NCBI GenBank assembly: GCA_011032825.1
Contig: JAADJZ010000018.1
Location: 434,001-498,000, forward strand
From: Massariosphaeria phaeospora
Lineage: Eukaryota; Ascomycota; Dothideomycetes; Pleosporales
Length of the DNA: 64,000 nucleotides
Reading direction: 5' to 3'
Shown here piece after piece: positions 10,999-61,279 of this stretch (positions are counted from its first letter, which is position 1; each line of letters begins with the position of its first letter). The position numbers and the translations under genes are program-made. The notes beneath the pieces were generated by a model, which made no database searches, was not told the origin of the DNA, and worked only from the letters and a program-made list of their open reading frames with translations.

Positions 10999-12544
10999 AT
11001 GTCTGGACACACCATGCCTTCCACAGGCAAACCCAGCGCTGCACGGAGCTTCCCTACTATCAAGCATGTCCGCACCTTCATCACCCAAGGGCCCGGTTCT
11101 GGTGGAGACTACCACAATGTGCACGGCGGCCATTGGTTGATTGATAGCAAGATCTCAACGCCCATGTCACAGTACGACGAGTACAGGAAGTCGAGGACAA
11201 GCTGGGGTATTAATGTGCTAGGCTCCTTCTGCGTCGAACTCGAGGCTTCCGATGGCACCAAAGGCTTTGCTACCGGGTTTGGGGGTCCGCCAGCTTGCTG
11301 GCTGGTTGCACAACATTTTGAGCGGTTCCTCATTGGCAAAGGTACGCCTTCTGTATGTCTGTTCTGCAGTGTCTTCGTGACAAATGAACATGTGCTCTTC
11401 CACCTCTTGTAGTCATGCTTTGATCTCGTTTCTGTTGCCCAACTCTGAAGGAGAGCTGAAAGGTTGTGAATGACAGGAATGAGATACCATTGAGCCAATG
11501 AGCATGTTTGCTGACAAGGAGGTCAGATCCGCGGGATACCAACCATATATTCGAGCAAATGTACCGGGCATCGATGTTCTACGGTCGCAAAGGACTCCCA
11601 GTGGCTGTCATATCCGTCATTGACCTTGCCATCTGGGACCTCCTAGGCAAGATCCGGAATGAGCCAGTGTATAAGATGCTTGGTGGCACCACCCGTGAGC
11701 GTCTGAACTTCTACTGCACCGGTCCTGAACCTGCGGCAGCAAAGGCAATGGGCTTCTTTGGCGCCAAAGTTCCTCTCCCATACGGACCTGGGGAAGGAGT
11801 AGAAGGTCTGAAGAAGAATGTCGAGTTCTTAAGGAAACACAGAGAGAGCGTTGGTCCTGACTTCCCTCTGATGGTTGACTGCTACATGAGCCTAAATGTA
11901 CCGTATACCATTGAAGTGGTCAAGGCTTGCGAGGATCTGAATATAAACTGGTGGGAGGAGTGCCTGTCGCCTGACGACACGGATGGTTTTGAGCTGATCA
12001 AACGCGCCCACCCTCGGATGAAGTTTACTACTGGGGAGCACGAATACTCCAGATACGGTTTCCGGAAGCTCATCGAAGGGCGCAATTTAGACATTCTTCA
12101 ACCTGACGTTATGTGGGTGGGCGGACTAACTGAGCTGCTCAAGATTGCTGCAATGGCTGCGGCGTACGATATCCCCGTAGTTCCTCATGCTAGCGGACCT
12201 TACTCGTACCACTTCGTCGTCAGCCAGGCCAATTCGCCGTTCCAAGAATATCTGGCAAACTCGCCTGGTAAGTTTTTGCACTCCCTCACGAGTAGCGTCT
12301 ATGTTGACAACATCCAGATGGCAAATCAGTGCTGCCGGTATTTGGCGATCTGTTCATCAATGAGCCCATACCCACGAAAGGATATCTCGATGTTTCTGTT
12401 CTGGATAAACCCGGCTTTGGCCTCGAGCTGAATCCCAAAGCCCGATTAATCGATGCCACCAATATTCTCAATCCGGCACCAGCTAAGCCATTGAAGGTTG
12501 AGGAGCCAGCCACCAATGGCGTGCAGGCAAGTGGCCACGCTTGA
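10999..12544 (+). CDS. lraC: L-rhamnonate dehydratase (enolase superfamily)
   Basis: Dehydrates L-rhamnonate to 2-keto-3-deoxy-L-rhamnonate in the fungal non-phosphorylated L-rhamnose pathway (LRA3 in yeasts, lraC in Aspergillus). Exons 10999-11341, 11527-12267 and 12318-12544; introns 185 and 50 bp; 436 residues, normal for the family. The enolase-type metal ligands are visible as the Asp in LMVDCYMSL, the Glu in NWWEECLSPDD and the Glu in KFTTGEHEYSRYGFRK. The catalytic His is in VVPHASGPYSYHF. The barrel signature ILQPDVMWVGGLTELLK is present. ATG at 10999 is preferred over an in-frame ATG at 10951; 11014 is a third option. The first intron is unusually long for this genome. Likely cytosolic. 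It lies divergent from a Zn2Cys6 factor. Confidence 0.93.
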
Positions 12545-60205: not shown

Positions 60206-60212
60206 AAAAAAA
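60206..60212 (-). terminator. RNA polymerase III T-run terminator of the tRNA-Leu gene
   Basis: Seven consecutive T on the minus strand, beginning 12 nt after the 3' discriminator base of the tRNA. Confidence 0.8.
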
Positions 60213-60244
60213 CCGCTCTAGTAATGCATTCGGTGGGATTCGAA

Positions 60245-60296
60245 CTAGCTTATGTCAGCAACTCAATTCTATTGCAGGCAGGTGGAGTGCACGTAC
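60245..60296 (-). other. 52-bp GT-AG intron-like insertion inside the tRNA T-arm
   Basis: On the minus strand it starts GTACGTGCAC, has TTGCTGACATAAG (branch consensus GCTGAC) and ends GCTAG. Length, donor, branch and acceptor match the mRNA introns of neighbouring genes (45-65 bp). Deleting exactly these bases rejoins GTGGG to TTCGAAT. Confidence 0.85.
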
Positions 60297-60318
60297 CCCA
60301 CGAAGGTTGCCCTATGAG

Positions 60319-60345
60319 AACACCCAGCGAGGGAGTAAGCTTGCG
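60319..60345 (-). other. canonical anticodon-loop intron of tRNA-Leu(CAA)
   Basis: 27 nt between position 37 (G) and position 38 (C). This is where tRNA splicing endonuclease acts in eukaryotic nuclear tRNAs. The exact 3' border could be off by a base. Confidence 0.75.
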
Positions 60346-60382
60346 CTTGAGTCACACGCCATAACCACTCGGCCACGAATGC

Positions 60383-61279
60383 AGATTGCTGCTTGATTTA
60401 TAAAGATTTCCTGCTCTCAAAGTATATATCCATGTGCGCCCACTCACCTGCAAGCGGGGTTACGCGGGCGGGGCACGCATGACGCGGACGTGCACAAGAG
60501 CGGTCACAGGGGGGAAGAGCTAACGACTGTCCCACATCAATTCTCGGCCCTTAATTCTCACCTATCAAACGCTACGCATTTACAAATATTTATTGATTCT
60601 CACCTATCAGTCATCATCTATTAAAGAAAATTGGGAGCCCTCGCCTAGCGAAAGACATGCATCGGTGATCACTCATTCATTATCGCCCCTCAAAACTACG
60701 CATCGAAAACGCCCATCGACTCTTACCTCTTGCTTCTCGCCTGTTAAAAAACGGCCGTCAGTTAACACCTATCAATTCTCATCCAGCAATTCTCACTCTA
60801 TCAATTTGGCACCTATTACTCCGTACTTAACATCTATTACCTCTCGCCCCTCTATCATCACCTACCGAATAACACCCATCGATCAATGACCTGTCACCAG
60901 CCAGTCCTTCCCGTGCGATTCAATCCAGCGTCTACTGTCCGACAGGACGCACCTAGAACGGCTAGTCGGAGTGGAAAATACTGCAAGGCGGGAAGATTCG
61001 TCTAGGATCACTAATCTCGCCCGATATGACTCGCGACCACTCTTGATCCATATATCAGCTCTGCCTCCTCGCATCGAAGCCATCACCACTCATTCCCAAC
61101 TTGTAAGGGAATATCAACATCACAGCGAACGAGACGGAGAAACAAATGTGGTAGGTATTGTCATTAGTTTTTTAATGTGGTCTAAGACATCTGCTTCTCG
61201 TATATAGGAAGAGGAGTGTGCTAAGCACCATCGATGTCAAGAGAAAGCTTTTCTCCAGCCGGCCAGGCGCATAAAGAAT
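60383..61279. other. intergenic with degenerate CTATCA/CTCACC-type repeat
   Basis: About 60540-60890 is built of loosely repeated ATTCTCACCTATCA-like words (CACCTATCAA, TCTCACCTATCAG, ACACCTATCAATTCTCA), with TACTCCGTA inside (60817-60825). The 98-codon frame over it is a by-product of the repeat. TTTATAA at 60398-60404 (plus strand TTATAAA) is upstream of the tRNA. Confidence 0.5.

Follow-up and report, generated by a model that had tools for sequence, protein, structure and literature searches.

A 52-nt insert in a nuclear tRNA-Leu(CAA) gene of this fungus is very probably a spliceosomal intron (U2-type, GT-AG) lying within a gene transcribed by RNA polymerase III (Pol III); with it, the tRNA genes of this genome contain at least ten introns of this kind. 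Eight isoacceptors are interrupted at five tRNA positions; repeated entry of spliceosomal introns into tRNA genes is the likely reading, in which the supply of tRNA-Gly(GCC) and tRNA-Arg(UCU) would depend on the spliceosome and two machineries would act on one tRNA. The gene was found in a window of 64,000 nt (C10:434001-498000), the whole stretch of DNA analysed here, which belongs to a 42.08-Mb genome in 51 contigs. A UDP-GlcNAc pyrophosphorylase encoded in the window, queried as a sequence joined from two ORFs, was 80% identical to its best named relatives, those of Alternaria alternata and Lojkania enalia, and 81% identical to one further relative. Since Lojkania belongs to the Pleosporales, the host is probably a fungus of this order.

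The tRNA-Leu(CAA) gene, 158 nt with both introns, occupies positions 60225..60382 of the minus strand, as judged by ARAGORN on the joined and intact sequences and by the Rfam tRNA score; all features described below for this gene are on the same strand. The mRNA-type GT-AG intron (60245..60296) separates tRNA positions 53 and 54, which is the border of T stem and T loop when numbered by hand. It contains the three splice signals named in a preliminary description of this DNA: a 5′ splice site GTACGT (60291..60296), a branchpoint-like CTGAC (60254..60258) with its A at 60255, 10 nt from the 3′ end, and a 3′ splice site AG (60245..60246), the last letters of the insert being CTAG. ARAGORN placed the anticodon CAA at 60347..60349 and a canonical anticodon-loop intron of 14 nt at 60331..60344, the register of which may move by 1-2 bases. 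The A box TGGCCGAGTGG (60365..60375) is uninterrupted, and letters 1-2 of the B box AGTTCGAATCC (60236..60246) are the AG of the intron. A run of seven T residues (60206..60212) is the likely Pol III terminator, and a TATATA element was observed approximately 40 nt upstream of the gene (60423..60428). The marks of a living gene pointed out earlier, namely an intact A box, the T7 run and a TATA-like box, were thus all present.

With 60245-60296 taken out, ARAGORN called tRNA-Leu(CAA) with the 14-nt anticodon intron, confirming the earlier claim that this removal gives a complete tRNA with an ordinary anticodon intron. From the intact gene it called no tRNA when introns were limited to 60 nt and a spurious tRNA-Arg(CCT) when introns of up to 300 nt were allowed, so that Leu(CAA) appeared only with the insert removed. 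The product, previously given as 79 nt, is really 106 nt when the mRNA-type intron alone is removed and 92 nt when both introns are (ARAGORN). The Rfam tRNA score of the intact gene was 24.8 bits, below the cut-off of 29, and the gene is for this reason missing from the Rfam list at gathering threshold. Scans of the whole window with Rfam at that threshold and with ARAGORN without introns gave no tRNA, as expected for an interrupted gene. Folding of the Leu precursor, once with the insert in place and once with it removed, gave no discriminating result. The gene overlaps none of the 32 listed ORFs of at least 110 aa between 40.5 and 64 kb; long ORFs are scarcer in window positions 40500-64000 (longest, 223 aa) than over the first 40 kb.

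For comparison, four mRNA introns were measured that protein homology had located in the window. They were 50, 56, 59, and 185 nt long, started with GTAAGT, GTGTGT, GTAAGA, and GTACGC, and contained TTGAC, CTGAC, CTAAC, and CTGAC; the distance of the A from the end, measured by hand, was 10, 8, 11, and 12 nt, respectively. The 185-nt intron (11342-11526), in a mandelate racemase-like gene, is far longer than the other three and might be more than one intron. As had been proposed, the Leu insert resembles these four introns in its signals and roughly in its length.

Inserts of mRNA type outside the anticodon loop were found in at least 10 of 69 intact nuclear tRNA genes, representing 8 isoacceptor families and spread over eight contigs; the spliceosomal-intron reading first offered for the Leu gene was therefore supported more strongly than that gene alone allowed, as all ten share the three signals. 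With sites numbered by hand, tRNA-Ser(TGA) (L089) is interrupted at 53/54, as in the window gene, tRNA-Glu(CTC) (L083) at 52/53 in the T stem, tRNA-Ala(AGC) (L141) at 58/59 in the T loop, tRNA-Ile(AAT) (L030) at 45/46 in the variable loop, and tRNA-Pro(TGG) (L145) also at 45/46; tRNA-Arg(TCT) (L103) and three copies of tRNA-Gly(GCC) (L050, L085, and L086) are interrupted at 24/25 in the D stem. None of the ten inserts is at position 37/38, the canonical tRNA intron site, and the usual anticodon intron is present in addition in 8 of the 10 genes.

The inserts are 47-56 nt long, which fits the mRNA-intron range as far as four measured introns define it, and all ten start with GT and end with AG at boundaries that restore the exons. 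A branchpoint-like CTRAY is present in every insert (CTAAC in 7, CTGAC in 2, and CTAAT in 1), with the A 10-12 nt from the 3′ end when the motif nearest the end is used; half of them (5/10) have a second such motif approximately 30 nt from the end. ARAGORN returned the expected tRNA from all ten joined sequences and from none of the ten intact ones, and it misread the intact sequence of one Gly-GCC gene as Gly-CCC. The 5′ splice sites of the Gly genes, GTCCG and GTTCG, fit the usual GTRNGT poorly. The Ser intron holds TTTT, possibly a weak Pol III stop; the absence of TTTT from the other nine inserts proves nothing, because three of the four window mRNA introns also lack it. A search of viral and prokaryote collections with the first 24 letters of the Gly gene gave no match.

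Mononucleotide shuffling (20,000 shuffles per insert, counting all registers that restore the same tRNA) gave GT-AG together with a branchpoint in 0.0001-0.0007 of trials per gene, and in approximately 0.0005 of trials for the Leu insert at its own place. Detection of the interrupted genes had relied on their tRNA features (B box, A box or a match to the Rfam model) and not on GT-AG; among the 69 tRNA genes, no insert outside the anticodon loop was noticed without these signals. The anticodon introns of the genome were 5-32 nt long and had a GT..AG register within 3 nt in 3 of 48 cases; the lengths are those of ARAGORN, which include some miscalls, and the intron of tRNA-Ile(TAT) (L021) appeared longer by eye (approximately 33-34 nt).

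The count of at least 69 intact nuclear tRNA genes consists of 59 ordinary and 10 interrupted ones, of which 47 were Rfam-listed, 21 came from pattern searches and one was the window gene. Of 1281 candidates, 63 were scored with the Rfam tRNA model, which gave at least 49 matches; two organelle-like ones were dropped. Pattern searches used a B box with a T run, and A boxes; they found tRNAs for Phe, elongator Met, Tyr, Gln, Glu, and Pro, which are absent among the Rfam matches listed. B-box patterns and their reversed controls gave 219 vs 143, 69 vs 32, 39 vs 25, and 58 vs 120 matches; with matches barely above, or below, the control, each candidate was judged by structure. For this, 35 candidate stretches, and a few more later, were fetched, and a script sought a matching acceptor stem and an A box. 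The script overlooked the true tRNA-Ser in L089, which was read by eye, and may have overlooked others among L091-L093, L100, L101, L104, L105, L107-L114, and L116, which were outside the inspection by eye. The sequences of L090, L096-L098, L102, L106, and L115 were printed out, and the B-box pattern loci L052-L081 were left out of the one-by-one study. Since an intron within the A or B box could also conceal a gene, 69 is a lower bound.

ARAGORN called 57 of the 59 ordinary loci; L118 and L139 (Phe), uncalled with short flanks, were read separately. Names corrected by hand were L028 (Trp), L033 (Arg-ACG), L035 (Leu-TAA), L046/L047 (Leu-AAG), L048 (Leu-CAA), and L151 (Met). L117, L119, L121-L130, L132-L138, L140, L152, L154, and L155 were rejected by eye as not tRNA-like. 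Also left out of the 69 were the tRNA-like L102 (Rfam 40.8 bits), the organelle-like pair L049, and the fragments L098, L106, and L146. L049 (C11:304999-305456) contains two organelle-like tRNA sequences approximately 115 nt apart on a 797-kb contig. L146 (C1:1331545-1331765) is a truncated tRNA-Ala-like 5′ half and L098 (C23:334640-335068) a decayed tRNA-like stretch; no mRNA-type intron was seen by eye in either.

For two isoacceptors, every copy found is interrupted (Gly-GCC, 3/3; Arg-TCT, 1/1). A genome match search and B-box pattern searches revealed no uninterrupted gene for either, and the only match crossing a junction was a different tRNA, tRNA-Arg(CCT), at 86% identity. Without these two tRNAs, the codons GGC, GGU, and AGA should stay unread under the decoding rules. 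The three Gly-GCC genes are identical in the first exon and in the last 36 nt; in alignments of their introns, which keep the signals, 36-45 of 49-52 columns agree, as do 29-42 of 61-64 columns over the 60 nt upstream. For Ile (L022 and L147), Glu (L082), Ala (L045), Ser (L012), and Leu (L048, by hand reading), genes with the same anticodon and no interruption were observed. The exons of two of these paralogs, L022 (Ile) and L082 (Glu), are the same as in the interrupted genes, and the insert is absent. L048, miscalled by ARAGORN as tRNA-His, is by this hand reading a second tRNA-Leu(CAA) gene without the insert.

The intron of the Ala gene lies within the T arm and separates the partners of pair 50-64, which is changed on both sides between the two Ala copies (A50-U64 vs G50-C64, hand reading). 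The interrupted Ile L030 and Ala L141 are without an anticodon intron, which the uninterrupted L022, L147, and L045 retain; in the Glu pair L082/L083 it is present in both members. Absence of the anticodon intron from the Ile and Ala genes is possibly a trace of a mature tRNA that was reverse-spliced and reverse-copied, and is taken here as a lead and not as a rule.

The A box is uninterrupted in all ten genes, and a B-box-like string was detected by script in nine. In the Leu and Ser genes the intron's own AG supplies the start of the B box, and in the Glu gene its final G does so. In the Ala gene the start of the intron creates GGTTCAAGTAC at the B box, one base away from what we take to be the B-box consensus. 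The sites near the B box may be those at which splice signals almost repair the promoter. Pol III genes are not affected in general, as neither of the two U6 snRNA genes found (L096, C6:637017-637439; L153, C12:117280-117500) and none of 21 5S rRNA matches has such an intron. Upstream, both U6 genes have a stretch resembling TATATATA, and in each the T-run is followed downstream by a B-box-like string (GTTCGAGCCC / GTTCGAGTCT). L090, L097, L106, and L154 combine a TATA-like box, a B-box-like string and a T-run, with no Rfam match at E 0.1.

Several other explanations are possible for the inserts. One is that the tRNA endonuclease removes them as ectopic introns by cutting at bulge-helix-bulge motifs, a situation known from red algae and nucleomorphs. 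Such motifs have been linked with ectopic tRNA introns in algae (PMC3978253), and the normal anticodon intron in 8 of the 10 interrupted genes is in keeping with this; however, all ten inserts bear three signals of mRNA introns for which the endonuclease has no need, and their lengths are like those of mRNA introns and unlike the 5-32 nt of anticodon introns. A crude scan, limited to the strict form with a 4-bp central helix, found that helix at 0 of 10 junction pairs (best, 3 of 4 pairs); strict bulge-helix-bulge removal was rejected on this result, and endonuclease cutting is considered very unlikely. That the interrupted genes are pseudogenes hit by insertions, with the cell relying on intact copies, is suggested by the uninterrupted genes for Leu, Glu, Ile, Ser, and Ala, and the interrupted single copies of these five could be dead. 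Against this, all copies found of Gly-GCC and Arg-TCT are interrupted, which makes pseudogenes less plausible in these two families; the Gly exon stretches are identical while introns and upstream flanks drift, and promoter boxes and T-runs are kept. Dead genes were rejected on the Gly-GCC and Arg-TCT result as an account of the class, for which we regard them as highly improbable. The alternative of a dead gene raised in the preliminary description is thus unlikely for the class, although the Leu(CAA) copy alone may be dead, as L048 exists.

Another explanation concerns origin only, namely that the inserts are introner-like mobile elements copied within the genome. Introner-like elements are known in fungi (PMC11889510) and different tRNA families have insertion sites in common; yet a 301-nt genome query containing the Leu gene and its insert gave no match other than itself, so that this alternative, also raised earlier, is without support for the Leu insert. 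The introns of different tRNA families look unrelated by eye, recognisable sharing being confined to the Gly copies, and such a source is unlikely. Chance or assembly error is exceedingly improbable, with the same signals at ten separate loci on eight contigs; chance was rejected on the shuffle values of each gene.

Spliceosomal introns remain the preferred explanation, and we infer from the sequences that the inserts are removed by splicing. Pol III would transcribe the gene by means of the upstream TATA element, the A box and the B box. In the nucleus, the spliceosome would cut out the mRNA-type intron, by which the D arm, T arm or variable loop would be rebuilt. The ends would then be processed and the tRNA exported, and the tRNA endonuclease would take out the anticodon intron; the endonuclease step is placed after the spliceosome because this enzyme reads the folded tRNA body. 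Making the interrupted tRNAs thus probably needs the spliceosome in addition to the usual tRNA-splicing enzyme. The least certain step is the origin of the introns, which was probably reverse splicing into tRNA transcripts. Scattered introns that are mostly unrelated by eye would fit this origin, and invasion of an already spliced tRNA, followed by copying back, would be expected to yield Ile and Ala copies without an anticodon intron. The gains possibly occurred by reverse splicing of tRNA molecules, some of them already freed of the anticodon intron.

If confirmed, these introns would mean that translation has a second requirement for the spliceosome and that tRNA is a recorded target of intron gain. 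They would also provide a clean test bed for intron entry, in which exons are short, the structure is fixed and gains are readable to the base. Standard tRNA annotation can miss or miscall such genes, as seen with the Gly-GCC gene read as Gly-CCC and the window scan that reported none. To our knowledge, nuclear tRNA introns are taught as the work of the tRNA endonuclease alone. The word 'spliceosom' was absent from a tRNA-intron review (PMC4090602) in a word search, and searches of the open-access literature, a scope outside which most subscription journals and preprints lie, turned up no description of nuclear tRNA genes with spliceosomal introns. The sequence evidence is strong that these introns form a real class, one that is undescribed as far as searched.

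Canonical eukaryotic tRNA introns (37/38) occur in 8 of the 10 interrupted genes, but differ from the mRNA-type inserts in site and machinery and, in this genome, have no GT-AG pattern. In red algae and nucleomorphs, ectopic tRNA introns occupy the D and T arms as well as the anticodon loop (PMC9602550, PMC3978253); they are described through the bulge-helix-bulge, and GT-AG and branchpoint are absent from the description in the available part of PMC3978253. Spliceosomal introns are known in ascomycete rRNA genes (PMC11889510) and are likewise mRNA-type introns in structural RNA genes, but rRNA is a Pol I product and not a tRNA; a 355-bp 18S intron of Pleosporales reported there, whichever its type, is longer than the tRNA inserts. 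Among Pol III genes, mRNA-type introns in U6 snRNA are not limited to fission yeast and occur in other yeasts too. In fission yeast, the U6 transcript carries an mRNA-type intron that is spliced and is thought to have come from reverse splicing (PMC10484740). The genes described here are similar in having an mRNA-type intron in a Pol III gene, with removal in this case predicted from sequence. The U6 intron is close to the catalytic nucleotides of the spliceosome, which makes it easy to imagine misfired reverse splicing at that spot, whereas a tRNA has no such place. The distribution is also different, in that fission yeast U6 has the intron, whereas in this fungus the two U6 genes found are without it and ten tRNA genes have one.
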